Under the pieces are notes generated by a model. That model saw only the letters and a list, made by a program, of their open reading frames with translations. It was not told the origin of the DNA and did not search any database. The position numbers were made by a program, and so were the translations under genes. Of a stretch of DNA of 64,000 bases, positions 16,066 through 44,930 are shown in pieces. The DNA is from Thelephora terrestris (Eukaryota > Basidiomycota > Agaricomycetes > Thelephorales > Thelephoraceae): contig WIUZ02000014.1 in NCBI GenBank assembly GCA_015956445.1, positions 124,001 to 188,000 on the forward strand, written 5' to 3'. Every line of letters starts with the position of its first letter. Positions within the stretch are counted from its first letter, which is position 1.

Positions 16066-16170
16066 TGTCACGAACGCATGACATAGTAGCCAAGATCGCA
16101 CAAATAGTTCAAGACATTGGTCTTATTCGTAGTAGTAATAATACAAAGGCGAACAGGAGGAACTACCAAT

Positions 16171-16851
16171 TCAAACAAGAACGAACGGGTCGACATCGCA
16201 TGAACAAGGCTGAGGGAGAGGACAACGGTGAGCGAAATGGTGAGGGTTATAAACACTCTCAGGACAATAGGACCACTCTCGCGTCGCCGGATCCTGCCAA
16301 CATTCCCTACACCCCAACATGTCATGAGAAAGACTCTCATACATCTCTCGACGCACGTCCAGCAAGGCCCCGCTCACTAAGGAGAACCCATAGCGGTCTT
16401 GGAGACCCGCCACTTCCACCTTCAACTTCATCTTCACCTGCCGTGACTTGTCGGAGGGACGACAACGTTGACCAGAACGAGTCATCGGACTCTTGCGGGT
16501 CTTCTTCTTCTGGGACCTCTCCACCATCTGGCGAACTGGGGCAGGACTCCAGGGAGGGGATGGAGGGAGAGGAATGCCCTGATCCTGGTGGTGGCGAAGG
16601 GATGACTGGGGACTTGCAAGGGGGGTCGGTGCAATAAGCTCCCCGACATTGGTGTCCGAAATATCGGAAGAGAGACGCCTGGAAAGGTCCCCAATGTTCC
16701 AAAGCAAAATGAGAGAAGTCATCATTCAGACTGTTCATGATGACGTACATGAGATCCACCCGCTTCTCCAACTTCGCAATTCGATCCTCCCTATCCCTCT
16801 CCATGACGTCCAACAAACGAACGGCCCCAGGGTGTTGAGCCCGGACCACAG
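16171..16851 (-). pseudogene. gene-1 remnant of copy 1
   Basis: The minus-strand sequence matches the distal part of gene 1 of the family: the LEKRVDLMYVIMNSLNDDF and FALEHWGPFQASLFRYFGHQ region, the Ser/Pro-rich part and the Cys/His-rich end (GCRECWQDPATREWSYCPES). The proximal part is absent because the foldback element adjoins it. Treated as a fossil piece. Confidence 0.8.
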
Positions 16852-18262
16852 GCAGTAGTCCTTATTAAAAACATTAATGTTTTAGGAGTTTTTGTCGCAA
16901 ATTTGAATGATTTTTCTCATGAGTTTTTGAATGGCCTGAGGGGGAATATTTTACTCATAAAGTTTTAATGGAAATTATGGGGGGGACTGGGACCCAGCTT
17001 ACTGGGCACTGGTGCTCCCAATTAGGCAGGTGCCGACAGTGTGGGTGGCCCGGGAGAGTGGATTGCTTATATAATAAAAATTAAAAAATTCCAAAAATTA
17101 TTAGAAAATTCCCACGGGTGTCAGGGAGGGCAGAAAATGAAAAATGGACTGTGGGAATTTCCGATCAAAATTTCCCAAAAAGGAAATTTTTGATGGCTTA
17201 CATAAGCAACTCAAAAATGATTTTGATATTGAATTTCCTTTTTGGGAAATTTTGATGGCTGACATAAGCGGGTCATGTGACTGAAAAAAGTGGGTGTTGC
17301 TTATGTAATCAGGTCATGTGACCAACCAAAAAAGGAAAGTTTTGATGGCTTACATAAGCGTCTCAAAAATGCTTTTGGAGGGGTCTTTCCCAAAAAGGAA
17401 ATTCCTTTTTAGGAAATATTTGATGGATTACCAAAAAAGGAAATTTTGATGGCTTACATAAGCAGCTCAAAAATGCTTTTTGCAAAAATTACCAAAAAAG
17501 GAAATTTCCATTTTAGGAAAGAGTTTCCAAAAAAGGATATTTTGATGGCTTACATAAGCAACTCAAAAATGATTCTGGCAAAAATTACCAAAAAAGCAAA
17601 TTATATGCTAGAAAATTCGGAAAAATGCCAGAAAAATCCTAAAAAATACTGAAAAAATTCCCACACGTCTAGAAAGTGCCCAAAATGGTAAATTATTCCC
17701 AGAAATATTCAAAAAATTGTTTTTCTGGCTGGAAAAATCAGGAAAAAATTCCAGAGTATAGATAAATATTTTATAAAAATTGTTCCAATTTTTTTGGTCC
17801 ATTGAATAGCCCATAATTTTAATATTAATATATTTTTTGCCCAAAAAATTCATAAAAATCCCCAAAAAATAGATGAAAATAGGAAAATACAAATATATCT
17901 GTAATATTCATTATATCATGAAGTACAGACCAGTTTGTGGTCATAAACTAGCCCTAAACCTAGTCCTGGACCTAACTTAACCTAACCTAGCCTAACCTTA
18001 ACTCTAACCCTAACCTAGCCTAACCCTAACTCTAACCCTAACCTAGACCTAAACCTACACCTAACCTAAACCTAAACCTAACCTAACCTAACCTAACCTA
18101 ACCCTAACCTAACCTAACCTAAACCTAACCTAACCTAACCTAACCCCAAACTTAACCTGCCCTAAACCCAGCCTGCCCCAAACCTATCCTAGCACCAAAC
18201 CTAAACCTAAACCTAAACCTAACCTGCCCTAAACCTAACTCTGACCTGGCCTAGTTCAGCCT

Positions 18263-18293
<31 letters not shown>

Positions 18294-18755
18294 TCTTATT
18301 CTGTCTTACCTACCCTAGACCCAACCTAACCTGAAATAGTCAACTTAACCTGGTCCACCACAGATCACCCAACCTAACCTAAAGTGGTCTACCTGACCTA
18401 GACTGATGCAACTTGAGTTTATCTCTTCTAATCAGCTGTTATCCTATCTGGCCTTAATCTAGATACCATAGCTAACCAACATCTAACCCAACCTCACCTG
18501 GCTCACCAGCAAGTAACTGGGCTACAGGAACACACCGTGAGCTGCACCATCCCATATCCTATATCCAACTGTCACTCAAACACAAGAACTGTGGTGGACC
18601 TACAAGTTAGTGGACCCATAAGCCCACAGACCCACAAGTATAGGCTGTTCACTCAGTGGAAACATCTGTTATCCATCCTCACTCATGTACCACCCTCACC
18701 CTGTGTTCTGTGCCAGACTGCAACTTCACCACAGCTCATGTTCAGCCACCTAGCT
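16852..18755 (+). repeat. left arm of the foldback element
   Basis: 1,904-base arm. From outside in, it has an A/T-rich leader, a zone with about six copies of GATGGCTTACATAAGC followed by AACTCAAAAATG-like sequence (17190-17570), an A/T-rich zone with many AAAATTCC words, a CCTAA-type array, a short (CTTAT)n run, and unique sequence up to the loop. Confidence 0.88.
17950..18340 (+). repeat. telomere-like CCTAA array, left arm
   Basis: Degenerate head-to-tail CCTAAC, CCCTAAC and CCTAAAC units run from about 17950, followed by (CTTAT)6-like repeats at 18263-18300. Basidiomycete telomeres are TTAGGG. These units are irregular (mostly TTAGG/TTAGGT on the other strand), so this is telomere-like, not a true telomere. 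Confidence 0.75.
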
Positions 18756-18828
18756 AAACCCATGTACAATCAGGTCTACAAATCCATGGATCCATAACAA
18801 GTAGTCTATCACCCTGACTTGCAGGTTC

Positions 18829-19290
18829 AGCTAGGTGGCTGAACATGAGCTGTGGTGAAGTTGCAGTCTGGCACAGAACACAGGGTGAGGGTGGTACATG
18901 AGTGAGGATGGATAACAGATGTTTCCACTGAGTGAACAGCCTATACTTGTGGGTCTGTGGGCTTATGGGTCCACTAACTTGTAGGTCCACCACAGTTCTT
19001 GTGTTTGAGTGACAGTTGGATATAGGATATGGGATGGTGCAGCTCACGGTGTGTTCCTGTAGCCCAGTTACTTGCTGGTGAGCCAGGTGAGGTTGGGTTA
19101 GATGTTGGTTAGCTATGGTATCTAGATTAAGGCCAGATAGGATAACAGCTGATTAGAAGAGATAAACTCAAGTTGCATCAGTCTAGGTCAGGTAGACCAC
19201 TTTAGGTTAGGTTGGGTGATCTGTGGTGGACCAGGTTAAGTTGACTATTTCAGGTTAGGTTGGGTCTAGGGTAGGTAAGACAGAATAAGA

Positions 19291-19321
<31 letters not shown>

Positions 19322-20732
19322 AGGCTGAACTAGGCCAGGTCAGAGTTAGGTTTAGGGCAGGTTAGGTTTAGGTTTAGGTTTAGGTTTGGTGCTAGGATAG
19401 GTTTGGGGCAGGCTGGGTTTAGGGCAGGTTAAGTTTGGGGTTAGGTTAGGTTAGGTTAGGTTTAGGTTAGGTTAGGTTAGGGTTAGGTTAGGTTAGGTTA
19501 GGTTAGGTTTAGGTTTAGGTTAGGTGTAGGTTTAGGTCTAGGTTAGGGTTAGAGTTAGGGTTAGGCTAGGTTAGGGTTAGAGTTAAGGTTAGGCTAGGTT
19601 AGGTTAAGTTAGGTCCAGGACTAGGTTTAGGGCTAGTTTATGACCACAAACTGGTCTGTACTTCATGATATAATGAATATTACAGATATATTTGTATTTT
19701 CCTATTTTCATCTATTTTTTGGGGATTTTTATGAATTTTTTGGGCAAAAAATATATTAATATTAAAATTATGGGCTATTCAATGGACCAAAAAAATTGGA
19801 ACAATTTTTATAAAATATTTATCTATACTCTGGAATTTTTTCCTGATTTTTCCAGCCAGAAAAACAATTTTTTGAATATTTCTGGGAATAATTTACCATT
19901 TTGGGCACTTTCTAGACGTGTGGGAATTTTTTCAGTATTTTTTAGGATTTTTCTGGCATTTTTCCGAATTTTCTAGCATATAATTTGCTTTTTTGGTAAT
20001 TTTTGCCAGAATCATTTTTGAGTTGCTTATGTAAGCCATCAAAATATCCTTTTTTGGAAACTCTTTCCTAAAATGGAAATTTCCTTTTTTGGTAATTTTT
20101 GCAAAAAGCATTTTTGAGCTGCTTATGTAAGCCATCAAAATTTCCTTTTTTGGTAATCCATCAAATATTTCCTAAAAAGGAATTTCCTTTTTGGGAAAGA
20201 CCCCTCCAAAAGCATTTTTGAGACGCTTATGTAAGCCATCAAAACTTTCCTTTTTTGGTTGGTCACATGACCTGATTACATAAGCAACACCCACTTTTTT
20301 CAGTCACATGACCCGCTTATGTCAGCCATCAAAATTTCCCAAAAAGGAAATTCAATATCAAAATCATTTTTGAGTTGCTTATGTAAGCCATCAAAAATTT
20401 CCTTTTTGGGAAATTTTGATCGGAAATTCCCACAGTCCATTTTTCATTTTCTGCCCTCCCTGACACCCGTGGGAATTTTCTAATAATTTTTGGAATTTTT
20501 TAATTTTTATTATATAAGCAATCCACTCTCCCGGGCCACCCACACTGTCGGCACCTGCCTAATTGGGAGCACCAGTGCCCAGTAAGCTGGGTCCCAGTCC
20601 CCCCCATAATTTCCATTAAAACTTTATGAGTAAAATATTCCCCCTCAGGCCATTCAAAAACTCATGAGAAAAATCATTCAAATTTGCGACAAAAACTCCT
20701 AAAACATTAATGTTTTTAATAAGGACTACTGC
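18829..20732 (-). repeat. right arm of the foldback element
   Basis: Reverse complement of the left arm, starting AGCTAGGTGGCTGAAC next to the loop and ending GGACTACTGC. The mirror TTAGG array lies at about 19245-19635. I saw no arm-to-arm difference in the parts compared through encoded frames and direct reading. Confidence 0.88.
19245..19635 (-). repeat. telomere-like TTAGG array, right arm
   Basis: Mirror of the left-arm array. Taken together the arrays read CCTAA on the left and TTAGG on the right, the orientation of the two ends of a linear chromosome, with about 0.9 kb between them. Confidence 0.75.
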
Positions 20733-20805
20733 GACCCGATACCCCACATCCTTCCGCTAATCCTCTAGCGCCCCACAAACAGTAAGCAGGCCCACAACCC
20801 TGACA

Positions 20806-21627: not shown

Positions 21628-21697
21628 ATGTCGTCTTCCAGTCAGCCTCCCCAACCAGGAACCCCTGGAGAAGATACTGGTAGAGATGACCGCACGG

Positions 21698-24044
21698 TGT
21701 CAGGCCGACGCGACCTCTTCAGTTCAATAGCACTCTTGCTATCCAAACCTATCACACGCAGGGATCAAACACACAGTTATAGCCCTGTTGCAAACCCAGG
21801 GATATCGGAAGTCTCTTCACAGACTAGATTGGAGAAGAGGAGAAAGAAGGAGACAAGGGTCTTCAGGCACTCTTGCTCTAAGCACACAGCAGTAGAGGTC
21901 ACGGAGAGTCTGATGATAACAAATCTAAGGAGTACAGGCTAAACTACTCTGAGTATATATACTACTTAGATTTGTGATGTGACTGTTACATGTAACTACC
22001 CTAAAGATACAAACACAGACAAACATGGTCCGTGCGCAGCACTGCATGGTCTGTGCGTTACGTGGTGACTAATGCTACAAATTATCAGCTGATAAACGAA
22101 AGTGTGGCGGCCAATAGCAATTTGAGAGCATTACAAAGCAGTTACAAAACATGACGTAGCCTGGGAATGTTTGGAAGGAATGTGGGTATGACTGACTAAC
22201 AGCCAATGGCAAAAGGGGAGCATATGATCCTGAGTCGTGGAAGGGGCGTGGCATTTGGTATATAACCAAAGGGGGTTGGATGACTGGACTTCCAACAAAC
22301 CTCCCTTTGTTACACACTCACAACATGCCTCGTGCCTCTACTCGTAATCCCACTCGTCGTTCCTCCTCGTACTCTCCTGTTCAGGAGAGCAACTTTAACA
22401 TCGACCGCTTCTCCCATGCCCGTCGGGATCCGTCTTGCCCTTATCCCACCTTAGGAGCCATTATGGACCGGACCGCCACCGCCGACCCTAATGAAGGGTT
22501 CTCTGATCTAGGTGGGAGGTCTGGTTGGCATTCCGATTTAGGAAAGCGAACTAACTCCTTTTAGGTTTCAGGGACTTTCTCCAGGCCGCTCGTAGGGTGT
22601 CTCGGCGCAAGTTGGCCGCATCGAGACCAACCCATATGCGAGCGAACTCCTCAATAGGGGTGTTGAGTTCATGACGGAGTCCAACGAGACCTTCAACTCC
22701 GTGTTGGAGGCCAGCGTTCTCCATACGGGGAACGTTGGGTCCATGTTAATGGATGAAGTGGCTCACGTCAACGAGCGCATCGATGGTCGTCGCGAGGAGA
22801 TAGAGGCCTTGGAGAATCGGAAGGAGGATATGCAGGGAGTTATTCACGGACAGGAGGATAGCGTTGTTCGGCAGGGCGCCGACATTGATTTGCTGAAGGT
22901 AAATGTGGGGTCGGGAGATAATTGACTTTTCTAACCCAACATTTCCTTCTAGGGAGAGGTGACTACCCTCAAGGACTTGGTTCGGGCCCTTGTTACCAAA
23001 ACCGGAGAATTGGAGGACGATAAGGTAAGGGGTAGGGGTTGAAGGTTTTTAATATCTTCTAACCCTATTCCTTTTTAGGTTCGCCTTACTCGTCGTATTT
23101 CCGAATTGACCGGAGAAGTCCGGGATCTCCAGAGGAGGTGCAACGAGCCGGAGGTCCGAGTTGAAGAGGAGGAGCCGGAGGTTCTGCATCGGGCTGGGTC
23201 GCCGATCATCCCTAACCGGGCTGAGTCGCCGCCCGCTCGTTTATTGGTCCGTCACGAAAACAGGTTGGTTCCCGTCGACGATGAGGTCATTGAAATCGGG
23301 AGCGACGAATTCTATCAGAACGTAGGAGTCGTCCGTAGGGACACTCCTCGTCCTGAGTTCGTTTCTACTCCTTGGGGTAGTCGCCGTCAATGGCCTGCTC
23401 TGGAGTATGATCCGTACGCCGAGTTCGTTCCTGATAGCGAACCAAACTCTGATACGGAGCTTCCAGATTACGATGATTTGTCGGACATGGACCCGAACGA
23501 GATCCGGGAGCAGAACTGGTTGAATGAGGAGTTGGTGAGATCGGCCTTGGAAGTAGTACAAAGGATCCGAAGAGATATTGATTAGATAACTCTTTTGTAC
23601 TGTTGGCTTCCAATGAATTTTCTATATTGCCTATTGCGCGTGATCCATGAGTCGTAAAGCATAATGGTTTTCATGAGTCCAATCCAAGGGTCAGATTAAT
23701 AAGCCGGTTGACTTCTGCGAGAGGTCAGCGCGCGACGCTTATTAATACATCCCTTGTTGTCGGTAGCCTGAATATCTACTAGTCGTCCAGGGGCAACGGA
23801 GGGCCAGGTAGGGGGGATCTTCTATGAAGGTCCGCCGGTACATGTTCACGTATTATACCTCGGGTCTTCTGGGGTATCTTGACTAGTAGCACGTTCCACG
23901 TATTGGACTTTGGGTCGTTAAGCATAGGGCATACTGCATAATAAACAGTTTATCGCCATGTTTAGGGCAAGTCACCAACTGACTTAGTGGTGATGAGGCG
24001 TTAAATAAAGGAAATGAAAGGGGGTAAACGGCGAAATCATCACA
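21698..24044 (+). mobile_element. element F: TGTCAGG...CATCACA insertion carrying a coiled-coil gene
   Basis: It starts TGTCAGGCCGACGCG and ends GAAATCATCACA. The 5 bases before (CACGG, 21693-21697) recur directly after (24045-24049), giving a 5-bp target duplication inside the first exon of the DUF6698 gene. It is 2,347 bases long. TGT...ACA ends and a 5-bp duplication fit an LTR-type solo end or an integrase-like transposon. It shares no obvious sequence with the 2.31 kb family. One gene is carried on the plus strand behind a TATA box (TGGTATATAACC, about 22255-22266). Confidence 0.65.
22325..23585 (+). CDS. coiled-coil protein gene carried by element F
   Basis: The ATG at 22325 follows a TATA box by about 60 bases. 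Open segments are separated by candidate short GT...AG introns (near 22500-22564, 22900-22952 and 23024-23078). They encode a basic Ser/Arg-rich start (MPRASTRNPTRRSSSYSP), a Glu/Lys/Arg-rich heptad region (ERIDGRREEIEALENRKEDM) and an acidic tail ending at 23585. Element E carries a gene of the same general plan (basic start, coiled coil, acidic Pro-rich tail). No known domain. As part of a possible LTR-kin element it is treated as a fossil; I cannot say whether it is expressed. Confidence 0.5.
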
Positions 24045-25001
24045 CACGGACGCCAACACCGATAAAGGCAGCAGTGGCCGATCAGAGCTGGAGCATGTCG
24101 TTCCTCCCTTTCACAAGGCAAAAGCTACGCTTACCTAGTCTCGCAGAATTTCCCTCGCATTGCGGGAAGTGATTCGGAGTGGTCGAGGGATTTGGAGGCT
24201 CGTGACCCTCTGTGGCACTGTCCGACAACTCGTGAAAGAGAGTGATCAACGGTTGCTGAACTTGCCGGACGATGAGGACGAAGAGGACGACGATGCAGAG
24301 ACACATCGACCTGCACAAGACCCACAGGAACTGGCACAAAGGTGAGAATTGTTTGGGATGTAACTGACCTCACACACACCCCACCCAACAGACGTGACCG
24401 TGATTGGCGTTCGTTCCAGGCTTTGGTAAAGCTCGTTCCTGGACTGAAAAGAAAGATCAGTGAACCATGCGAACTTTCAAGGGTGCTTTACTATACAAAT
24501 GTCAGAAAACTTCGACATAAACCACTCGACTTAGTTGTGACTCACTTTTTTCAGCTCATTGCTGGGGCCAACTCCGCAAGAAGCGACGACATCTCCTGTG
24601 TGAAACCGAAGATTGCTGAGTGGCTCAACACACGGTTGGTAGAAGTACCTGTCGAGCAACACCTTGCCCTCTCAAGGAGGGATGGACGCGGCCTGCAACA
24701 CGACATCACCGGAAGACTGTTGTGCCCAATCAAATATGAATGGGACGATCTTGAGTGAGCACCCGAGTCGACCCGAGTCACCTTTGATCATGTCACCCAA
24801 GACATCAAGCTATGTTGCTTACTTGCTTTCTATGACAGCGTTCGCGCAAAGATTCGTGATGAGGTCGATGGCTACAGCGCATCAACAGACTACTGGTGTC
24901 ATGAACGCGTGACATAGTAGCCAAGATCACACAGATAATTCAAGACATTGGTCTCATTCGCAGTAATAATAGTACAAGGGGAGCTAGCAAGAACTACAAA
25001 C

Positions 25002-25476
25002 TTAAACAAGGACAAAAGGGTCCACGTCACATGCACAATCCTGAGCAAACGGGCAACGATGAGCGAAATGGTGAGGGTTATGTACACTCTCGGGACAATA
25101 CGAGTACACCCGCGTTACCGGATCCACCCAACACTCCCGACATCCCAACACATCATGATACAAACTATCATGCATCTCTCGCTTCACGTCCGACAAGGCC
25201 GCGCTCACTAATGCGAACCCATAGCGGTCTTGGAGACCCGCCACCTCCACCTTCAACTTCATCCGAACCTGACGTGACTTGTCTGAGGGACGACAGCGTT
25301 GACCAGAACGAGTCATCGGATTCTTGCGGTTCTTCTTCTTCAGAGACCTCTCCACCATCTGGCGAACTGGGGCAGGACTCCAGGGAGGGGATGGAGGGAG
25401 AGGAACACCCTGATCCTGGCGGTGGCGAAGGGACAACTGGGGACTTGCAAGGGGGGTCGGTGCAATAAGCCCCGTG
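25002..25476 (-). pseudogene. gene-1 distal part of copy A
   Basis: The Cys/His-rich end of gene 1 (GCRECWVDPVTRVYSYCPES region) and the Ser/Pro-rich middle are on the minus strand. The gene is split here by copy B, with the proximal part at 27800-28233. Fossil piece. Confidence 0.75.
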
Positions 25477-25496
25477 TGTCAGGGTTGTGGGCCTGC

Positions 25497-26120
25497 TTAC
25501 TGTTTGTGGGGCGCTAGAGGATTAGCGGATGGGTGAGGGGTGTCGGGTCTGGTTTTGAAGGGGGTTCCGGGTGTGGAGACGAGGAGAGGAGGGATGTCGA
25601 GAGAGAGAGGTGACTCGGTTTGATAAGGATGAACGGGCGAGTGGTAGTCTTGACAGAACTGATTAAGTTGCTGCACAAACGGTTCGAAGTCTTGGTCGCT
25701 AAGACTTTCGAAGTTGACGAGATATTCTATAACAGAGTAAGGTAATTCAGTTGGGATTTCCCACCAAAGAACGATAATAGCAGGAGAATGGGTGTGGACG
25801 TTAGTTGTAAGATGAACACGTGGGGAGGGGAAGTAAAAGGCTGGACTGATACTGAAGTAGACGGTCGCAAGGACGCTCTCAGTAAGATCCGAATTCCAAA
25901 GGAATTGATGGTCCGCTCCTAATAGAAAAGGAGGAGTGGTGATCCCGGCGTCAAGAGCTGCGAAAGGGCGGTAGTAGGGGAAATGGGTAAGTAGACCGGT
26001 GGTTCGGTTTACTTGAAGACTTCTGATGAGTTTATACTCCCAGATAGATCTCCTAGCGTCAGGGACAACTGGTCGCTGGACTGGGCTAATAGAGGGAAAA
26101 GGATTTGGGGCGCTGAACAT
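25497..26120 (-). CDS. gene 2 of copy B, 207-residue unknown protein
   Basis: The frame runs from MFSAPNPFPSISPVQRPVVP to a stop next to the element end. Landmarks are RRSIWEYKLIRSLQVNRTTG, LLTHFPYYRPFAALDAG, TTPPFLLGADHQFLWNSDLT, SIWEYK/SPAFYFPSPRVHL, THSPAIIVLWWEIPTELPYS, VIEYLVNFESLSDQDFEPFV and QQLNQFCQDYHSPVHPYQTE, then a Pro/Thr-rich tail ending LAPHKQ. It looks like a compact globular domain with aromatic core residues. I recognise no family. A 5' non-coding exon ends at AATAAAAGTAAGCTGAG, and the GTAAGC donor pairs with a CAG just upstream of the ATG. The frame looks whole. Confidence 0.72.
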   Translation of the reverse strand: MFSAPNPFPSISPVQRPVVPDARRSIWEYKLIRSLQVNRTTGLLTHFPYYRPFAALDAGITTPPFLLGADHQFLWNSDLTESVLATVYFSISPAFYFPSPRVHLTTNVHTHSPAIIVLWWEIPTELPYSVIEYLVNFESLSDQDFEPFVQQLNQFCQDYHSPVHPYQTESPLSLDIPPLLVSTPGTPFKTRPDTPHPSANPLAPHKQ

Positions 26121-26260
26121 ACACTGGCAGGAAGATTCCTGCTGAGATGAGTTAGAAGAGGTAAGGCGTGAGGAGAATTCCTCAGCTTACTTTTATTCAG
26201 GTTGTGGGTAGAGGAGTACAGAAGAGATTGAGAATGGGGGAAAGAAGGAGCGAACGCTCT

Positions 26261-26275
26261 TCCTTATATACCCAG
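26261..26275 (-). promoter_or_regulatory. TATA box of gene 2, copy B
   Basis: GGGTATATAAGGA on the minus strand, followed by the conserved leader hairpin AGAGCGTTCGCTCC. The same block occurs in all copies that keep this region. Confidence 0.7.
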
Positions 26276-26439
26276 CTCTCTACAGGAGTCATAATTCTAC
26301 AAGGGACCAAACGTGCATAAACATGGTCTGTGCGTACTTTAGGGTAGGTTTGAATGAGTCGGGGAAAGGGGACTTAGGACGACGAATGGTAATGACTAAT
26401 ATGAAAACAATAGGAGGAGCGACTGATGGAAGTACTAGG

Positions 26440-26600
26440 GGATTTCTTCTGATCGACGGGGATTTCTCTGGATTTCGGAAGTAGTAGAAGTGTGGCGGGG
26501 ATTTCTCCTGATCGATGGGGATTTCTCTGGATTTCGGAAGTAGTAGAAGTGTGGCGGGGATTTCTCCTGATTGATGGGGATTTCTCAGGTTTTGATGGGA
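26440..26600. repeat. GGGGATTTCTC minisatellite, copy B
   Basis: Units of about 60 bases built on GATCGATGGGGATTTCTC repeat two to three times between the two divergent genes. The opposite strand reads GAGAAATCCCCATCGATC, the form seen in copies in the other orientation. Confidence 0.7.
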
Positions 26601-26790
26601 TCGCGATTGGGGTTGAGGGTTCGTTTATCCTAGTTGGGACCTTAGTGGAAAATAGTTATTGTTTTCCCCTTTTGGGGTTCTGTTGAGTCAGGATGTATTT
26701 AAGTCAGGGGGATTAATGATCGTTCCCTCCATCGTCTCTTTTCCACTCCTACCAAACCAACCACTACTCTCCTAAACAACCTTCGATACT

Positions 26791-27694: not shown

Positions 27695-27799
27695 GTTTGT
27701 AGTTCCTTTTAGTCACCTTTGTATTATTATTACTGCGAATGAGACCAATGTCTTGAATTATTTGTGAGATCTTGGCTACTATGTCACGCGTTCGTGACA

Positions 27800-34295: not shown

Positions 34296-34315
34296 TGTCA
34301 GGGTTGTGGGCCTGC

Positions 34316-34919
34316 TTACTGTTTGTGGGGCGCTAGAGGATTAGCAGAGGGGTGAGGGGTGTCGGGTCTTGTTTTGAAGGGAGTTCCGGGTGTGGAAACG
34401 AGGGGAGGTGGGATATCGAGAGAGAGAGGTGACTCTGTCTGATAAGGATGCACGGGTGAGTGGTAGTCTTGGCAGAACTGGCTGAGTTGCTGCACTAGAG
34501 GTTCGAAGTCCTGATCGCTAAGGTGTTCGAAGTTGACGAGATATTCTATAACCGAATAAGGTAATTCAGTTGGAATCTCCCACCAAAGTACGATGATAGC
34601 AGGAGAATGGGTATGGATGTTAGTGGTGAGGTGAACACGTGGGGAGGGAAAGTAAAAGGCTGGACTGATACTGAAGTAGACAGTCGCAAGGACGCTCTCA
34701 GTGAGATCTGAATTCCAAAGGAATTGATGATCGGCTCCTAGGAGAAAAGGGGGAGTAGTGACTCCGGCGTCGAGAGCTGCAAAGGGGCGGTAGTAAGGGA
34801 AATGAGTGAGCAAACCGTTGGTTCGGTTTACTTGAAGACTTCTGATGAGCTTATACTCCCAGATAGATCTCCTAGCGTCAGGGACGACTGGTCGCTGAAC
34901 TGGACTTGTAGAAGGGAAA
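34316..34919 (-). pseudogene. gene-2 distal part of copy G
   Basis: Same protein family as the other gene-2 copies (PYYRPFAALDAGVTTPPFLL to LAPHKQ). The gene is split by copy D; the proximal few codons lie at about 40537-40565. Fossil piece. Confidence 0.75.
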
Positions 34920-35024
34920 TGTCACGAACGCGTGACATAATAGCTAAAATCACACAAGTAATTCAAGACATTGGTTGCATTCGCAATAGTAATAGTACAA
35001 AGATGGGAGAAAGGAACTATCGAC

Positions 35025-35928
35025 TCAGACAAGAACAAACGGATCGATATCGCAGGAACACTTCTGAGGAAAAGGGCAACGGTGAGCGAAGTGGTGAGGA
35101 TTGTGAATACTCTCAGGACAATAAAACCACTCTCGAGTCGCCGGATCCTGCCAACATTCCCTGCATCCCAACACATCATGAGAGAGACTCTCATACATCT
35201 CTCTCCGCACGTCCAGCAAGGCCCCGCTCACTAATGAGAACCCATAGCGGTCTTGGAGACCCGCTACCTCCACTTTCAACTTCATCCTCACCTGCCGTGA
35301 CTTGTCGGAGGGACGACAGCGTTGACCAGAACGAGTCATCGGACTCTTGCGGGTCTTCTTCTTCGGGGACCTCTCCACCATCTGGCGAACTGGGGCAGGA
35401 CTCCAGGGAGGGGAGGGAGGGAGAGGAATGCCCTGATCCTGGCGGTGGCGAAGGAATGACGGGGGACTTGCAAGGGGGGTCGGTACAATAAGGTCCCCGA
35501 CATTGATGTCCGAAATATCGGAAGAGAGATGCCTGGAAAGGTCCCCAATGTTCCAAAGCAAAGTGAGAGAAGTCATCATTCAAACTGTTCACGATGACGT
35601 ACATGCGATCCACCCGCTTTTCCAACTGCACAATCCTATCCTCCCGATCCCTTTCCATAAGGTCCAATAGCTGAGCGGTGGCAGGGTGTTGAGCCCGGAC
35701 CACAGGTCCAGAAAGCCGGGGGTCTTCAAACCCAGCTTGTTCCCAGAACTCGGCAGGAGCGTTATGGGCGGTGAGGAAGTCGACGGCAACCTGGTTATCG
35801 TGGGTGATGTTGGCAGGGGTGTCGTATAAGTGTTGTTCCACATCGTAAGGAGCATCCGTCTCAAAGGATGGAGTGAAGGGGACGGCGGCAGCGTTGAGAA
35901 TAACGTTGTTGGCGGCGAAAGCAGACAT
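35025..35928 (-). CDS. gene 1 of copy D, overlapping open frames
   Basis: Starts MSAFAANNVILNAAAVPFTP. The 245-residue and 184-residue frames of the family are both open. It ends with GCRECWQDPATREWFYCPES and CSCDIDPFVLV. No known family. It looks whole. Confidence 0.65.
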
Positions 35929-36134
35929 AGTAATAGCAGATGTTTAAGAGGAGAGTGGTGGATGATTGGTGGGAGTGGAAAAGAGGCGATGGAGGGAACG
36001 ATCATTAATCCCCCCGACTTAAATACCTCTTGACTCAAAAGCAAACCGGAAAGAGAAGACAATAACCCATTATCCATTAACGTCCGAATTAGGATAAACA
36101 AACCCTTAACCCTGATCGTGATCCCATCAAACTC

Positions 36135-36280
36135 AGAGAAATCCCCATCGATCATGGGAAATCCCCACCACGCTTCTACTACTACCATTGATCCAGAGAA
36201 ATCCCCATCGATCACGAGAAATCCCCATCACGCTTCTATTGCTACCACAAAACACGAGAAATCCCCGAACGCTTCCATCA
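36135..36280. repeat. GAGAAATCCCCAT minisatellite, copy D
   Basis: Four imperfect units of AGAAATCCCCATCGATCA with CACGCTTCTATTGCTACC-type spacers lie between the divergent genes. Confidence 0.72.
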
Positions 36281-36430
36281 ACTAGTACCCCTATCGCTCC
36301 CGTATGAGTAATTACCATCTGTCGTCCTAAGTCCCCTCATTCTGACTCATCTACCCTACCCTAAACTACGCACAGACCATGTTGACTCTTGTTTGACTCG
36401 TTGTAGAATAATGACTCCTGTAGAGGATTG

Positions 36431-36512
36431 GGTATATAAGGAAGAGCGTTCGCTCCTTCTTTTCCCCATTCTCAATCTCTTCTGTACCTCTCTACCCACA
36501 ATCTGAATACAA
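36431..36512 (+). promoter_or_regulatory. TATA box and leader hairpin, copy D
   Basis: GGTATATAAGGA then AGAGCGTTCGCTCC, as in copies A, B, C and H. The splice donor region downstream reads TGAATACAAAGTAAGC, so this copy and H have AATACAAA where C and A have AATAAAA. Confidence 0.65.
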
Positions 36513-36584
36513 AGTAAGCTGAGGAATTCTCCTCACGTCTTACCTCTTTCTAACTCATCTTAGCAGGAATCCTCCTGCCAGTGT

Positions 36585-37202
36585 ATGTTCAGCGCCCCTA
36601 ACCCCTTTCCCTCCACAAGCCCCGTTCAACGACCAACTGTCCCTGACGCTAGGAGATCTATCTGGGAGTATAAACTCATCAGAAGTCTTCAAGTAAACCG
36701 AACCGCCGGTTTACTCACCCATTTCCCTTACTACCGACCCTTTGCAGCTCTCGACGCCGGAGTCACCACTCCTCCGTTTCTACTAGGAGCTGATCATCAA
36801 TTCCTTTGGAATTCGGATCTTACTGAGAGCGTCCTTGCGACCGTCTACTTCAGTATCAGCCCGGCCTTCTATTTCCCTTCTCCACGTGTTCATCTCACGA
36901 CTAATATCCACACCCATTCCCCTGCTATTATCGTTCTTTGGTGGGAGATCCCAACTGAATTACCTTATCCTGTCATAGAATATCTCGTCAACTTCGAGCG
37001 ACTCAGCGATCAAGACTTCGAACCCTTTGTGCAGCAACTTAGTCAGTTCTGTCAAGACTATCACTCGCCCGTCCATCCTTATCAGACCGAGTCACCCCTC
37101 TCTCTTGATATCCCTCCTCCCCTAGTCTCCACACCCGGAACCCCCTTCAAAACCCGACCCGACACCCCTCACCCCGCTGCTAATCCTCTAGCGCCCCACA
37201 AA
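36585..37202 (+). CDS. gene 2 of copy D, end altered by element E
   Basis: The frame is open from MFSAPNPFPSTSPVQRPTVP through the family landmarks to LAPHK, where element E adjoins. The last codons of the family (Q, stop) lie beyond E at 40511. Reading into E would add a short unrelated tail. Confidence 0.68.
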
Positions 37203-37265
37203 TGTCAGGGCCACTCTACCCTAACAACTACCAGTGCACTGAGCCGACTCCGCAGAGTACTCACT

Positions 37266-38500
37266 AGTCCAACTAGCTTGTGAGAGAACGTTCACGTCTC
37301 TATTCTTCCGGTAAGTTGTCCGAGGTCACTACAAGTCAGGTCGAAATCCTAAAGAGAAACCCAACCTAAACCGTACTTCGTTCGGTTTAACAAGCAAGGG
37401 TTGATCCCTACAACAGGATTGATGACTCCACCAGTTGATCGACTGGACGCTCGAGGTGTTCTAATATGACTGCTGGGAGTCTATAGTTACGAGGCGCAGT
37501 TGACGCGCAGAGCGGGAGGGAGAGCAGATGGGGGATGTCTTGGATCAAACAAGAAACTCTGACTTGTCCTTAACTGCAACTGGGCTGAGAAGGGCAGAGG
37601 ATTTCCTGAGGTAACAAAACTAAGGTACTACGATACAGCCACAGTTGCTACTTATACTAAAGGAGTGGCCATGACGTCAATACCCTAATATACCCTTATC
37701 AAGTCCAGAACAAAGGGAGATAAGGAGTGTGTGAACGCTAAGTAAGGGAAGCGAGCAAATATGACGCGTGGGAGAATAAAGGACAAAGGGCCTTACTAGC
37801 GTGTGAAGGATTTCATAAAAGATAACGAATGTCCGCATGAAACATAGGGGTAAAGATAACACTAGTCCTAAAAGAAAGAGGGGCATGGGGTCATGAAAGT
37901 TCGTACCTGGGGATCTCACCCAAGGGCCAGGTGTCAATCTCCCTTTACATGGCCTCTGCCAGCTGGATTCGGGAGTAGAGACATTCAACATCCCTTGTTG
38001 TCTGTAGGCGGTAACAGCATCACGGACAAGTGGTAACCTCAACGTACGTCCGAACATGAGGAGGTCGGGCCTAGACTCATGGGACATGAGGGATTACAGA
38101 TTCGCCGGCGTTTCACGCTAACGGCTACTCCACATGCGCTGGGCTAACCAGAAGGATCCTAAGGCGATGCTTCCGAGTAACGGTGAGTCCTTCCTCCGGT
38201 TAGGAGACTGTGATGTGACTGTCCACGTGTGTGATCAGGGTCCAGGGTTGATCGTAATCGTAAAGTCATGAGGGGTCGTAAAAAGGGGTTCGTGATGTCA
38301 TAAAGGGGTCATCAGGGTCTTGAGACCTATTTTTAGTGCGCGCGCATTCTAGGCGTTCCGGAACGAAGTTCTTCCAAGGCCGTCCCGCGGGCCGAGGTGT
38401 CAGCTTGATGTAGTAAGCCAACGATGATGGTACAGGGGCGGAAGTTGATGTGACCCGGACCAATGAGGTTCGTCGAGGTAGGTCACGTGAAGGATCACCG
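37266..38500. other. non-coding left part of element E
   Basis: About 1.2 kb without a supported gene before the E-borne gene. A TATA-like GGCTATAAGAAGG lies at about 38505-38517, some 65 bases before the ATG. This would be the promoter half of the element. Confidence 0.5.
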
Positions 38501-38581
38501 ATCTAGGCTATAAGAAGGATGTCTTCTTGGAGCCATCCTTGATCAGCAACACCAGCAACTTCCCCATCATCTTACCAAAAC

Positions 38582-40183
38582 ATGTCCTTCCCCAACAACC
38601 ATACCTACAAAGTTGCCAATGGTATCTCCACCATCTCTCGCATCGACCGTCGTGCCGCCGCTCGCAAGACCTATGCCTGTGTGGCTGGAACTCCCTATAC
38701 CACGGATGACCAGGTATGGGGGAGACCTAGAGCTTTTGTGCTAGCACTAACGCCTTCCTCTAGGTAGAGGTTCGTTCTTTAGGGCGTTGATGTCTTGCTA
38801 ACGGCTTCTAGATCTTGGAGGTCGTCACGGAAGTGGACGCCGAACGTCTCAGGGAAACGATGCCTCATTTGAAGGGGTTAACCTGGGACGACGAGCTCTG
38901 GGTCCGTACAATTATTGCGGAGAAGGTGGCCTTCCAGATGAGGGGTAGGTTCAGAGAGTTGGAGCATCCGATCAAGAAGGAGCTCTGGTACACCCTGCAG
39001 AGGGGAATCTACGATCAGGACCTGTTGGAGCACGGAGCGACCGTTCCTCGGGCCGTCCGCCATGCTACCGCTTCCACTAGCCTTTTGTGGTCGCTCGTTC
39101 GGGAAGGGGAGAGCAAGGTAGGTTCTCCGTTTGAATATTCGAGTATGACTCTCGACTAATCAAACCGCCTAGGTTGAACGTTTGGAGCGTGAGGTGAAGG
39201 AGGCGAAAGCAGATGTCCTTCGTCTGTCTGCAGAGGGTCTTCAGATGAAGGAGACCTTGGCAGCCTTCCAGCAGGGGACGAACGAGGCGTTGGAGGCAAT
39301 GGTCGCCAACCATCAAGAGTCGATCGCCGGTCTGAAAGTCAGGGATAACAACATCAAGGGAGCGTTGGCCAGGAGGGATGAAAAGGTAATGCCGCTTTCA
39401 TCATTGCTTAAAATGATGAAAGCTGACATTTCCTAGACCGAAGAACTCGAGAACGTGGTGGCTGTGTTGACCGCGCAGGTCGAGTCCTTGCAGGACAAAA
39501 CCTGTAACTGCAAAGAGGGTCCCAAATTGGTTGGTCAGGGGACCGCCGATGTTCCGTTCGAGCTGGAGTACGTCAATGAAGTGGTACTCCCTTCTCCTAA
39601 CCCGTCGTCCTATGCGACACCTCCGATCGAGAACGCGGTTCCTGTTCCGACTCCAGGTCCTGCTTCCACCTTGGCCGCTTCTGACAAGGAGAACTGTGCG
39701 CGCTGCGTCTTGCAGCCGATCCATCAGTTGGTGAAGATCGAGGATGAGGTCATGGAGGTTGACCGAGCCGAAGATGCTCCGAGGGTCGCCGAGGTACGTC
39801 CGGTGACTAAGGGGCAACGATGCAAACGCTCTCGACGCCGTCCTGCTCATCGCATGGCTCCATCGGCTAATCCCTATCCTCGTCCAGTCGAGTCGGATGG
39901 TGACCAGTCTGGTCGAGGTGGGGGACGAGAGTTCCGCTATCGGGTCAACCGTCCCTACCGACAGGTCGAGTCGGAGATCCAGCTTCGCCACCAGCTTCGA
40001 CTCGCAAGACAGGATTCCGCCCAGGGGTCCGACGAGGGAGACGGAGGGTCACTTGCCGACTACGTCGATAGTGCTGTCGAGCAGTCACCCGGTGATGGCG
40101 ATGTGGGACCAAGTGTTCCAGAGTTCAGTGACATCTGGGAGGCTGATCGGTCCGCTCGAAGGCATCTCTTCCTATCGGCTTGA
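38582..40183 (+). CDS. coiled-coil protein gene carried by element E
   Basis: The ATG at 38582 begins MSFPNNHTYKVANGISTISR. Open segments separated by candidate short introns (near 38713-38811, 39117-39172 and 39386-39437) encode a Glu/Arg-rich helical part (KGLTWDDELWVRTIIAEKVA; ERLEREVKEAKADVLRLSAE), further heptads, then a Pro/Ser-rich and basic/acidic tail ending ARRHLFLSA at 40183. The general plan matches the gene in element F. No known domain is recognised. Fossil treatment applies; the segments look well kept. Confidence 0.58.
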
Positions 40184-40536
40184 ACTAGTCGTTCAGCTGA
40201 GTGCCGAAGATGGTGATGCCATGTTCGGGGAGGTCCTAGCGAGGAGGGGCCAGCACTACGATCTCCGAGATGGACACTTAGTGACCTTCAGGCCCGCCGT
40301 AGATAGAGTCGACTTTTGAGGACGTTGTAGAAGCATTTGTATAGCCAGGTTGTTTCGTATTGCCGTGAATGTATGCGCGTTTGTGTGTTTTGAATGATTG
40401 GTGTGAAGGATAAGGAGTGTGAAGCATTCAAAACATAAGAAGTGATAAGAAGAGTTCGACGAAAGAGCGTGTTATAAAAAGTTTAAAAATACCATGTTCC
40501 TGACAACAAACAGTAAGCAGGCCTACCACCCTGACA

Positions 40537-40830
40537 GGAAAGGGTTGGGGGCACTGAACATACACTGGCAGGAGGATTCCTGCTGAAATGAGTCAGAAAG
40601 GGTAAGACGTGAGGAGAATTCCTCAGCTTACTTGTATTCAGGTTGTGGGTAGAGGAGTACAGAAGAGATTGAGAATGGGGAAAAGAAGGAGCGAACGCTC
40701 TTCCCTATATACCCAATCCTCTACAGGAGTCATTATTTTACAACGAGTCAAACAGGGATCAACATGGTCTGTGTGTAGTTTAGGGCAGGGTGGATGAGTC
40801 AGAGAAGTGGGACTTTAGAGCGACAAATGA
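40537..40830 (-). promoter_or_regulatory. start and promoter region of gene 2, copy G
   Basis: On the minus strand it carries the first codons of gene 2, the CAG acceptor and GTAAGC donor region, and the TATA block (CTATATACCCAATCC at about 40706-40720). It was separated from the rest of gene 2 by copy D. Confidence 0.6.
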
Positions 40831-40869
40831 CGAAATGAAATAAGGGAACAATAGCGAAGGAGTCATTAG

Positions 40870-40985
40870 GAGCACAATGGGGATTTCTCGTGATCGATGG
40901 TGGCAATAGAAGGTTGATGGGGATTTCTCATGATCGATGGGGATTTCCCATGATCGATGGGGATTTCTCAGGGTTTGATGGGATC
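40870..40985. repeat. GGGGATTTCTC minisatellite, copy G
   Basis: Units of GATCGATGGGGATTTC(T/C)CATGATC repeat four times between the divergent genes of copy G. Confidence 0.7.
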
Positions 40986-41170
40986 GCGATTGGGGCTGAG
41001 GGTTCGTTTATCCTAGTTGGGACGTTAGTGGATAATAGATTATTGTTTTCCTTTTCCGGTTTGCTTTGAGTCAGAACGTATTTAAGTCAGAGGGATTACT
41101 GATCGTTCTTCTCATCGTCTCTTTTCCACTCCCATCAAACCAGCCACTCCTCCTCTAAACCATTCCTACT

Positions 41171-42080
41171 ATGTCTTCCTTCGTCGTCAACAGCACTCCG
41201 CTCAACGCCGCCGCTACCCCCTTTGACTTTACCCCGTCCTATGAGACGGATGCTCCCTACGATGTGGAGCAACACTTGTACGACACCCCTGCCAACATCG
41301 CCCACGACAATCAGGTGGCTGTGAACTTTCTGACCGCCCACAATGCTCCCACCGAATTCTGGGAACAAGCTGGGTACGAAGATCCCCGGCTTGCTAGGCC
41401 TCAGGTTGAGGCTAAACATCCTGGAGCCGTCCTCCTGCTGGACGCCATGGAGAGGGAATGAGAGGATCGGATTGCGAAGTTGGAGAAGCGCGTGGATCTC
41501 ATGTACGTCATCATGAACAGTTTGAATGATGACTTCTCTCACTTCGCTTTGGAACATTGGGGACCTTTCCAGGCATCTCTCTTCCGATATTTCGGACATC
41601 AGTGTCGCAGAGCTTATTGCACCAACCCCCCTTGCAAGTCCCCAGTCATCCCTTCGCCACCGCCAGGATCAGGGCGTTCCTCTCCCTCCATCCCCTCCCT
41701 GGAGTCCTGCCCCAGTTCGTCAGATGGTGGAGAGGTCTCAGAAGAAGAAGAACCGCAAGAGTCCGATGACTCGTTCTGGTCAACGTTGTCGTCCCTCCGA
41801 CAAGTCACGTCAGGTTCGGATGAAGTTGAAGGTGGAAGTGGCGGGTCTCCAAGACCGTTATGGGTTCGCATTAGTGAGTGCAGCCTTGTCGGACGTGAAG
41901 CGGGAGATGCATGAGAGTTTGTCTCATGATGTCTTTGGGTGCAGGGAGTGTTGGGTAGACCCGGTAACTCGAGTGTACTCTTACTGTCCTCAGAGTGTAC
42001 ACAACCCTCACCACTTTGCTCATTGTTGCCCGATGGCTCAGGATTGCGCTTGTGACGTAGATCCTTTTGTTCTTGTTTAG
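41171..42080 (+). CDS. gene 1 of copy G
   Basis: Starts MSSFVVNSTPLNAAATPFDF and keeps the family landmarks (DAPYDVEQHLYDTPANIAHD, HFALEHWGPFQASLFRYFGH, GCRECWVDPVTRVYSYCPQS, CSCD-like end). The copy is somewhat more diverged than B, C, D and H and looks slightly broken, in line with its older age. Confidence 0.6.
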
Positions 42081-42261
42081 TTTTGTAGTGCGTTTTAACT
42101 GCCTTCGTATTACTACGACGAATAAGACCAATGTCTTGAATTATCTGCGTGATTCTTGTCACGAACGCGTGACATAGTAGCCAAGATCACACAAACAATT
42201 CAAGACATTTGTCTCATTCGCGGTAATAATAGTACAAAGGTGGCTAAAAGGAACTACAAAC

Positions 42262-43153
42262 TTAAACAAGGACAAATGGGTCGACATCACAAGAACAGTT
42301 CTGAGGAAGGGGGCAGCGATGAGCAAAGTGGTGAGGGTTATGGATACTCTCAGGACAATAAGACCACTCTCGCGTCATCGGATCCTGCCAACACTCCCTA
42401 CATCCCAACACATCATGAGAGAGACTATCATACATCTCTCGTCGCACGTCCGACAAGGCCTCGCTCACTAATGAGAACCCATAGCGGTCTTGGAGACCCG
42501 CCACCTCCACCTTCAACTTCATCCTCACCTGACGTGACTTGTCGGACGGACGACAACGTTGACCAGAATGAGTCATCGGACTCTTGCGGGTCTTCTTCTT
42601 CTGGGACCGCTCCACCATCTGGCGAGCTGGGGCAGGACTCCAGGGAGGGGATGGAGGGAGAGGAACGCCCCGATCCTGGCGGTGGCGAAGGGACGACTGG
42701 GGACTTGCAAGGGGGGTCGGTACAATAAGCTCCCCGACATTGGTGTCCGAAATATCGGAAGAGAGATGCCTGGAAAGGTCCCCAATGTTCCAAAGCAAAA
42801 TGAGAGAAGTCATCATTCAAGCTATTCATGATGACGTACATGAGATCCACACGCTTCTCCAACTTCGCAATCCCATCCTCCCGGTCCCTCTCCATGACGT
42901 CCAGCAAACGAGCAGCAGCAGGGTGTTGAGCCTGCATCTGAGGCATGGGAAGCCTGGGGTCTTCGTACCCAGCCTGTTCCCAGAACTCAGCGGGAGCGTT
43001 GTGAGCGGTAAGAAAGTCGATGGCGACCCGGTTGTCATGGGCAATGTTGGCAGGGGAGTCATATAAATGTTGCTCCACGTCGTAGGGAACAGCCGGGGTG
43101 AAGGGGGTAGCGGCAGCGTTGAGCACGATGTCGTTGGCAGTGAAAGCAGACAT
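42262..43153 (-). CDS. gene 1 of copy H, overlapping open frames
   Basis: Starts MSAFTANDIVLNAAATPFTP on the minus strand. Both family frames are open and it ends with GCRECWQDPMTREWSYCPES and CSCDVDPFVLV. Unknown function; it looks whole. Confidence 0.65.
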
Positions 43154-43359
43154 AGTAGTAATGGATAATGAGAAGACGGTGGTATTGGTGTTTGGTGGGA
43201 GTGGAAAGAGACGATGAGGGGAACGACCATTAACCCCCCCTGACTTAAATACACCCTGACTCAAAAGGGAACCGAAAAGGGAAAACAATAACCTATTATC
43301 CATTAAAGTCCCAATTAGGATAAACGAACCCTCAGCCCCAATCGCGACCCCATCAAAGC

Positions 43360-43515
43360 CGAGAAATCCCCACCGATCAAGAGAAATCCCCATCAGGCTT
43401 CTATTACCACCATGAAACAAGAGAAATCCCCATCGATCGCAGGAAATCCCCATCACGCTTCTATTGCTGCCATTGATCCAGGGAAATCCCCATCGAACAC
43501 GAGAAATCCCTGAAT
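43360..43515. repeat. GAGAAATCCCCAT minisatellite, copy H
   Basis: Five imperfect units on GAGAAATCCCCATC with variable TTCTATTGCTGCCATTGATC-type spacers lie between gene 1 and gene 2. Confidence 0.72.
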
Positions 43516-43675
43516 GCTTCCATCGACTCATGCCCCTATTGTTCCCGTATGAGTAATTACCATCTGTCGTCCTAAGTCCCCTCATTCTGACTCATCTACC
43601 CTACCCTAAACTACGCACAGACCATGTTGACTCTTGTTTGACTCGTTGTAGAATAATGACTCCTGTAGAGGATTG

Positions 43676-43757
43676 GGTATATAAGGAAGAGCGTTCGCTC
43701 CTTCTTTTCCCCATTCTCAATCTCTTCTGTACCTCTCTACCCACAATCTGAATACAA
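43676..43757 (+). promoter_or_regulatory. TATA box and leader hairpin, copy H
   Basis: GGGTATATAAGGA, the AGAGCGTTCGCTCC hairpin, a C/T-rich start region and the GTAAGCTGAGGAATTCTCC donor region. Closely matches copy D. Confidence 0.65.
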
Positions 43758-43829
43758 AGTAAGCTGAGGAATTCTCCTCACGTCTTACCTCTTTCTAACT
43801 CATCTTAGCAGGAATCCTCCTGCCAGTGT

Positions 43830-44453
43830 ATGTTCAGCGCCCCTAACCCCTTTCCCTCCACAAGCCCCATTCAACAACCAATTGTCCCTGACGCTAGGAG
43901 ATCTATCTGGGAGTATAAACTCATCAGAAGTCTTCAAGTAAACCGAACTGCCGGTTTACTCACCCATTTCCCTTACTACCGCCCCTTTGCAGCTCTCGAC
44001 TCCGGAGTCACTACTCCTCCTTTCCTTCTAGGCGCAGATCATCAGTTCCTTTGGAACTCGGACCTCACTGAGAGTGTTCTAGCAACGGTCTATTTCAGCG
44101 TCAGCCCGGCCTTTTATTTCCCCTCTCCCAAAGTCCATTTAACTACCAACGTTCACACTCACTCCCCCGCTCTTATCATCCTCTGGTGGGACATCCCAAC
44201 TGAACTACCTTATTCGATTATAGAGTATCTCGTTCACTTCGAACAGCTCAGTGGTCAAGACTTCGAACCGTTCGTCCAGCAATTGAATCAGTTCTGCCAG
44301 GACTACCATTCGCCCGTCTATCCTTATCAAACAGAGTCCCCACTCTCACTTGATATCCCTCCTCCTCTCACCTCTACGCCCGGAACCCCCTTCAAGACTC
44401 GACCCAACACCCGACACCCCTCCGCTAATCCTCTAGCGCCCCACAAACAGTAA
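43830..44453 (+). CDS. gene 2 of copy H, 207-residue unknown protein
   Basis: Whole frame from MFSAPNPFPSTSPIQQPIVP to LAPHKQ. It is the most diverged gene-2 copy at protein level, yet mostly by conservative changes (TNVHTHSPALIILWWDIPTE against TNIHTHSPAIIVLWWEIPTE). This pattern is compatible with selection on the protein. Unknown function. Confidence 0.72.
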   Translation: MFSAPNPFPSTSPIQQPIVPDARRSIWEYKLIRSLQVNRTAGLLTHFPYYRPFAALDSGVTTPPFLLGADHQFLWNSDLTESVLATVYFSVSPAFYFPSPKVHLTTNVHTHSPALIILWWDIPTELPYSIIEYLVHFEQLSGQDFEPFVQQLNQFCQDYHSPVYPYQTESPLSLDIPPPLTSTPGTPFKTRPNTRHPSANPLAPHKQ

Positions 44454-44507
44454 GCAGGCCTACAACCCTGACAATTCTGGATACTATGTCATGCGTTCGT
44501 GACATGC

Positions 44508-44930
44508 TCAAGGCGATTGAACATCATGATCTGAGGACGTGAGTGTAAAGTGATCGGAGATGGACATTGTGCCTGGCTTGTTTACCATTTCTCTGAACAC
44601 AGGATTTTGTAGGAGATCCAGAGGAAGGTCAGCAAAATGGGTGAACAAGGTGCCATCTCGCGCATTTTTCACTTGAAGAATGATGTCTGGGAGATCTTTC
44701 ATGAGGCTTAGGGCTTCGATGGCCACATCTAACACTGAGAGAATGTCATCCCACTCTACGAGTGACTGAGATGTTGCGACCATAGTCGAAAGTACATCAG
44801 ATGCTACTAAATTGTCGAACCCGTTGCGGGAGGGGTAAGTCATTTTCTCTCCCTTTTCATGATCGTATCTCACCTCATGATCTCTATCAAATATGCGGAC
44901 AAGGCCAAGAAGCTCATACATCTTAATCAT
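44508..44930 (-). CDS. hypothetical ORF beside the element nest
   Basis: A 140-residue minus-strand frame begins MIKMYELLGLVRIFDRDHEV and has helical, moderately hydrophobic content (ASDVLSTMVATSQSLVEWDD; ILSVLDVAIEALSLMKDLP). It has no known domain. It stops within the target duplication of copy G, so the end of a longer host gene may have been displaced. It lies 75 bases downstream of the kinase gene and could be a neighbour or a fragment. Confidence 0.35.
   Translation of the reverse strand: MIKMYELLGLVRIFDRDHEVRYDHEKGEKMTYPSRNGFDNLVASDVLSTMVATSQSLVEWDDILSVLDVAIEALSLMKDLPDIILQVKNARDGTLFTHFADLPLDLLQNPVFREMVNKPGTMSISDHFTLTSSDHDVQSP

Follow-up and report, generated by a model that had tools for sequence, protein, structure and literature searches.

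A family of seven related units was found between positions 16066 and 44504 of a 64,000-nucleotide stretch of Thelephora terrestris DNA (assembly GCA_015956445.1, contig WIUZ02000014.1, positions 124,001–188,000; this whole stretch is hereafter termed the window). The units are discrete mobile insertions, and the two divergent open reading frames (ORFs) which they carry are, on the evidence of their codon statistics, real genes under strong purifying selection. The units are probably solo long terminal repeats (LTRs) of a Ty3- or Copia-like LTR retrotransposon in which the LTR itself is gene-bearing.

Architecture, nesting and insertion sites

All seven units possess TGTCA...TGACA ends and are 2,307–2,323 bp in length if uninterrupted. 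An 18-bp terminus had seven matches in the window with no more than three mismatches, compared with 0.05 expected from shuffling. A BLAST search with copy H as query found seven copies in both orientations, in pieces 83–91% identical to H. Six of the copies (A, B, C, E, G, and H) could be aligned over their full length, with pairwise identities of 84.5–90%. The units, with their target-site duplications (TSDs), are as follows:

16066–20805, plus strand: unit X, gene 1 exon 2 intact, TSD GCTGG/GCCGG (4 of 5 bases)
24897–31844, plus strand: unit A, with B and C inserted within it, TSD ACTGG, sits in a DUF6698 gene
25477–27799, minus strand: unit B, 2,323 bp, within A, TSD CACGG (unit orientation)
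28784–31090, plus strand: unit C, 2,307 bp, within A, TSD CAATC
34296–44504, minus strand: unit G, with E and H inserted within it, TSD GAGCA (unit orientation), gene 1 exon 1 with one stop
34920–40536, plus strand: unit E, within G and with unit F inserted within it, TSD GGAAA
42157–44473, plus strand: unit H, 2,317 bp, the reference copy, within G, TSD ATTCT

Gene 1 is oriented toward the TGTCACGAACG end and gene 2 toward the CCCTGACA end, with a minisatellite and a TATA box between them. In H the features outside the genes are:

42157–42174, plus strand: left terminus, TGTCACGAACGCGTGACA, a short palindrome
43361–43510, no strand assigned: 60-bp minisatellite in 2.5 copies, flanked by the divergent genes
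43678–43684, plus strand: TATATAA box upstream of gene 2, read by eye, ~790 bp from the right end of the unit

Among the copies, an AATAAA-like run is present in A, B, and C only.

The common architecture of seven copies, with genes pointing to opposite ends, had been described in a first-pass annotation of this DNA and was borne out by the terminus matches and the BLAST search, as were the lengths of 2,307 to 2,323 bp given there for B, C, and H (2,323, 2,307, and 2,317 bp when measured). Unit X does belong to the family but is not complete, ~1.46 kb in the middle of the unit being replaced by a 3.9 kb palindrome. The nesting of B and C in A, and of E and H in G, was upheld. If the reported nesting of "E in D" refers to the unit at 37203–40505, that unit (F) is not a copy but a member of another family, without a BLAST match to H. 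Removal of F gives E a gene 2 of 207 aa, and removal of E does the same for G. The 5-bp duplications, the selection on the genes, the apparently dual-coded stretch described below and a further unit, K, are additions to the earlier description.

The palindrome in X (16852–20732) is near-perfect, with 57 of 3881 positions mismatching its own reverse complement. It has a G+C content of 38%, compared with ~51% in its surroundings, contains CCTAACC-like arrays, and may represent either a fold-back element or an artefact of assembly.

Units F and K share the anatomy of the seven copies while belonging to different families:

37203–40505, plus strand: unit F, within E, TGTCA...TGACA ends, TSD ACAAA
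21698–24044, plus strand: unit K, between X and A, TGTCA...TCACA ends, TSD CACGG

The F gene was modelled by eye with four exons (38582–40183), giving a coiled-coil-like protein of 465 aa; K has one predicted coiled-coil-like gene (22325–23585), its introns modelled in part. No sequence relation was detected between F and K or between F and gene 1 (best E 3.5 and 0.037, respectively), the latter match being a proline-rich stretch.

The measurement of ends and flanking duplications which the first-pass annotation had proposed was carried out within the window. A perfect 5-bp duplication flanks eight of the nine units (A, B, C, G, E, H, F, and K), including six of the seven family members, where a chance match would be expected at ~0.0011 per pair. 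In X, four of five bases agree and the mismatch is C/T at a CG site. These lengths fall within the 4–6 bp typical of LTR elements, and the termini of all nine units have the TG...CA form of an LTR. The inverted match at the ends is only 5 bp (TGTCA/TGACA) in the seven copies, 7 bp in F and 3 bp in K, so that none of the nine has the terminal inverted repeats of ~10 bp or longer that mark DNA transposons.

The flanks of the units, once joined, read like unoccupied insertion sites. At the site of A, the unit interrupts a DUF6698 domain whose order is kept, profile positions 2–61 lying on the left and 73–157 and 153–203 on the right. The protein joined over this site matches DUF6698 positions 52–203 with an E-value of 1.1e-37, which is not directly comparable with the values of the pieces as an intron was also omitted by eye. 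An ORF with its ATG at 21628 reads over the K site for ~30 codons before reaching a stop or an unmodelled intron. It is plausibly the start of the DUF6698 gene hit by A, and K probably interrupts the same gene within its N-terminal part. One DUF6698 gene (21628–32557) thus appears to have been disrupted twice, by the independent insertion of K and of A. When the flanks of X are joined, an open frame runs across the site, giving a 264-aa piece without a Pfam match; joining the flanks of G did not give a long frame.

Selection on the two genes and apparent dual coding in gene 1

The positions of the predicted genes in H are as follows:

43830–44453, plus strand: gene 2, 207 aa plus stop
42840–43153, minus strand: gene 1 exon 1, dN/dS 0.15 across six copies
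42770–42839, minus strand: predicted 70-bp intron of gene 1, GTACGT...CAG, open as coding sequence if retained
42262–42769, minus strand: gene 1 exon 2 in the spliced frame, with a Cys/His-rich C-terminus (CREC...HNPHHFAH...C)
42428–42769, minus strand: stretch of 342 nt in exon 2 which appears to be coding in both the spliced and the intron-retained frame

Codon counts were made on copies A, B, C, E, G, and H, with the partial copy X left out. Rates of replacement (dN) and synonymous (dS) change were obtained by simple counting (Nei-Gojobori type, with Jukes-Cantor correction), and since the copies are mosaic the values are approximate. Gene 2 is open over 207 codons in all six copies once the inserts are set aside, with a stop 20 bp short of the unit's right end. 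Its mean dN is 0.034 and its mean dS 0.631, giving a dN/dS of 0.053, with variable columns numbering 31/207, 13/207, and 129/207 at codon positions 1, 2, and 3. Beyond its first 280 nt, exon 2 of gene 1 has a dN/dS of 0.13, and it is open across 168 codons in the six copies where this exon is uninterrupted as well as in A with B removed. Gene 1 is broken in one copy, by the stop in exon 1 of G. All three indels found inside genes (15, 12, and 6 bp, all in gene 1 and none in gene 2) are in frame, compared with only two multiples of three among the 23 found elsewhere in the unit.

Changes private to single copies point the same way. Without selection, a ratio of synonymous to replacement changes of roughly 1:3 is expected. 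For gene 2 the counts are 7:3 in A, 8:3 in B, 11:4 in C, 31:16 in H, 4:3 in E, and 13:1 in G, summing to 74:30; for gene 1 they are 34:17 in exon 2 (spliced frame) and 27:20 in exon 1, in addition to the stop in G. The summed ratios are well above the neutral yardstick, the weakest signal in exon 1 being that of E (6:7) and H (2:4). Most of the divergence would appear to have arisen while the lineages were functional, each insertion being young by comparison. The mosaic nature of the copies is seen in E and H (34920–37202 and 42157–44473), which share 326 identical bases around the promoter, yet are 87% alike overall, and in B and C, which have 245 identical bases in common. Such mosaics could have arisen by gene conversion or by template switching.

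Splicing out of the 70-bp intron shifts the reading frame of gene 1. The spliced protein has 272–277 aa in B, C, and H, and the intron-retained protein has 240–245 aa in B, C, E, H, and A with B removed. Within the 342-nt overlap, third positions of the spliced frame vary at 22 of 114 sites, compared with 38 of 56 in the part read in a single frame (Fisher p 8e-10), while second positions, which correspond to third positions in the other frame, are variable at a similar frequency, 18 of 114 (third:second comparison, p 0.004). When synonymous codons of the spliced frame were resampled, the retained frame stayed open in only 4 of 5000 trials, and in 10 of 5000 when codons were permuted within the region. 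In the intron, 9 of 70 columns vary (3/23, 0/23, and 6/24 by retained codon position), although splice signals are a further constraint on this sequence. Read from sequence, gene 1 thus appears to give two products from one locus, with a 342-nt stretch used in two frames.

Protein families and neighbouring genes

Neither gene product could be placed in a recognised family, as the first-pass annotation had stated. No Pfam match at cut-off was obtained for spliced gene 1, intron-retained gene 1, gene 2 or the F gene, and none was found in a scan of the two exon-bearing ORFs of K. Below the cut-off, gene 1 matched RAB3GAP2_C (E 0.037) and F matched four families (best E 0.0084). Searches of NCBIfam and PHROGs gave no match, and sequence searches of the PDB gave nothing below E 0.66, which is at chance level. 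AlphaFold models of intron-retained gene 1 and gene 2 had a mean predicted local distance difference test (pLDDT) score of 41 and 33, respectively, and are too poor to use. No relatives were found among viral contigs scanned with gene 2, gene 1 (in both frames) and F, or among bacterial and archaeal genomes scanned with gene 2, neither collection being fungal. The earlier statement that no enzyme for movement lies inside the unit also held, as neither gene has a Pfam family at cut-off; no transposase was found at that cut-off in gene 1, gene 2, F or the two K ORFs. A tRNA scan found none.

Outside the units, protein kinase domain matches were observed in three minus-strand ORFs (45008–46838), the C-terminal half of the domain being matched twice. 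Other host-type genes in the window encode Glyco_transf_90 (7956–8984), Fer2 (3687–4133), and JAB (50426–51334) domains. The DUF6698 match, like that to a Plavaka transposase described below, agrees with a mushroom-type fungus.

Nature and origin of the units

Solo LTRs are favoured because of the TG...CA ends, the 5-bp duplications, the promoter-like region with its TATA box in mid-unit and the lack of a transposase in the unit. Ends of this form together with a 5-bp duplication are what the integrase of an LTR retrotransposon leaves. In such an LTR, U3 (the unique 3′ region) would hold antisense gene 1 and the promoter region, and the part downstream of the TATA box would hold gene 2. A full element would have been integrated by a retroviral-type integrase, and recombination between its two LTRs would afterwards have left one. 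With the gene 2 stop so near the right end, its transcript would have to continue into what follows, as that of a 5′ LTR does into the interior. The gene products may help the element, for example by regulating its transcription, RNA processing or silencing, as is suggested by the coding constraint kept across gene 2 lineages 0.4–1.1 synonymous changes per site apart. That they act for it as regulators of transcription, RNA handling or silencing is a tentative guess, prompted by the basic stretch and Cys/His-rich tail of spliced gene 1 and by the gene pair flanking the minisatellite.

Several observations weigh against gene-bearing solo LTRs. LTRs are ordinarily non-coding (PMC4667437), and here a single window would hold three families with coding LTRs. 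All nine units are single, and no paired copies, primer-binding site, gag, reverse transcriptase or integrase were found within the 64-kb window. A six-frame motif scan of the window found no reverse transcriptase, protease or zinc-knuckle motif, giving only two weak HHCC-like strings outside the units, and 67 of the 110 ORFs reaching 120 aa were scanned against Pfam, two of these over part of their length; degraded pieces below 120 aa would escape the Pfam scan. In the Podospora family crapaud, 150 of 1305 LTR insertions are reported as full copies and ~89% as solo LTRs or fragments (PMC10787394). At that rate, the probability of finding no full copy among nine units is ~0.33 by our own arithmetic, and the absence of pairs is therefore weak evidence. 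Units X and A, which agree in orientation, were considered as the two LTRs of one element. Against this, a perfect duplication flanks A by itself, and the intervening stretch contains K and DUF6698 sequence.

The same single state of all nine units, and the lack of a retroelement interior in the window, would also be expected of a separate class of gene-bearing unit which never has an interior and is moved in trans as DNA by an enzyme, integrase-like or other, able to recognise TGTCA...TGACA ends and to generate 5-bp duplications. Such a class, which we regard as possible and distinctly less probable than solo LTRs, would suit the common plan (TG...CA ends, a TATA box in mid-unit, predicted genes that are intact) of three families between which protein similarity was undetected in the comparisons made (F with K and with gene 1), as well as the position of gene 2 at the very edge of the unit. 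On the other hand, the terminal inverted repeats are very short, no transposase is carried, and in at least one LTR family of fungi most LTRs occur singly (crapaud, 150/1305 full; PMC10787394). A Plavaka transposase fragment (14190–14564, E 5.2e-12) lies outside the units, 1.5 kb from X; its proximity could be counted in favour of a separate class, but nothing ties it to the units. In its most specific and similarly doubtful form, this alternative describes a class of TG...CA-bounded cassettes, with at least three families here, whose conserved orphan genes lack an interior and which would spread in trans on a retrotransposon integrase, propagating accessory genes, one of them used in two frames by way of an intron that is optionally retained.

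Three other explanations appear less probable still. Termini, duplications and solo state are all ordinary for LTRs, and would be equally so if the open frames were accidents. This is contradicted by the codon statistics and is very improbable, given the gene 2 dN/dS of 0.053, with 129 variable third positions against 13 second positions, the three in-frame indels of three inside genes against 2 of 23 elsewhere, and the open exon 2 in the six copies where it is uninterrupted and in A with B removed. Intact and constrained proteins would be equally expected of host genes caught by chance in one LTR family, amplified with it and useful to the host instead of the element; seven divergent mobile copies, mutually nested and broken, would better fit constraint at the level of the element, and we consider this origin unlikely. 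Large retrotransposon derivatives (LARDs) and terminal-repeat retrotransposons in miniature (TRIMs) are non-autonomous elements that have lost their enzymes and still move, and the absence of own enzymes is shared with the present units, in which no enzyme genes were recognised. LARDs and TRIMs are mostly non-coding and keep two LTRs, between which lie a primer-binding site and a polypurine tract, whereas what was found here is a single gene-bearing unit with flanking target-site duplications and no second repeat around a non-coding interior, which makes a derivation of this type rather improbable.

Gene-bearing solo LTRs thus remain the preferred reading. The units resemble solo LTRs of Ty3/Gypsy or Ty1/Copia elements in their TG...CA ends, 5-bp duplication, internal promoter-like region and solo and nested occurrence, and differ from them in carrying two divergent selected genes, with no interior or partner in the window. 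At 2.3 kb, they are also longer than the crapaud LTRs of 339–443 bp (PMC10787394). The best analogue is the sag gene of mouse mammary tumour virus (MMTV)-like LTRs, the proposed likeness being one of working. The sag gene lies mostly in U3, its dN/dS was 0.289, and of 527 contigs with sag, 490 resembled solo LTRs (PMC4667437). A protein-coding LTR with measurable coding constraint that is mostly solo is common to both, whereas MMTV is a vertebrate retrovirus with one gene mostly in U3, and the fungal units have a divergent gene pair and a gene 1 stretch apparently read in two frames. In the portions of the open-access literature consulted (among it PMC9674265, PMC3411680, PMC2774666, PMC11117352 and PMC8775202), sag was the only gene found described as lying inside an LTR (PMC4667437). 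Other candidates were rejected: Talaromyces pol ORFs, non-LTR ORFs and a host gene within a whole retrotransposon are different things, foamy-virus bel-2 was named from its position between env and the LTR, and the available text on long LTRs does not mention genes (PMC12037069, PMC1560396, PMC7828637, PMC4016481, PMC12946509, PMC1142308).

The first-pass annotation had seen in these copies a candidate for an undescribed mobile system. Discrete mobile units with orphan genes are indeed present, but a new system is not established, since solo LTRs explain the mobility. What is new is an LTR-like unit carrying selected genes, the movement of which is explicable by an ordinary retrotransposon backbone. 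LTRs are treated as non-coding regulatory DNA and repeat annotation tends to hide internal ORFs; genes located in an LTR would persist in solo copies after the remaining element is lost. The overlap in gene 1 is a candidate for dual coding via intron retention in a mobile element. If LTR-like units do carry long-selected genes, they would represent a little-recorded layer of transposon biology.

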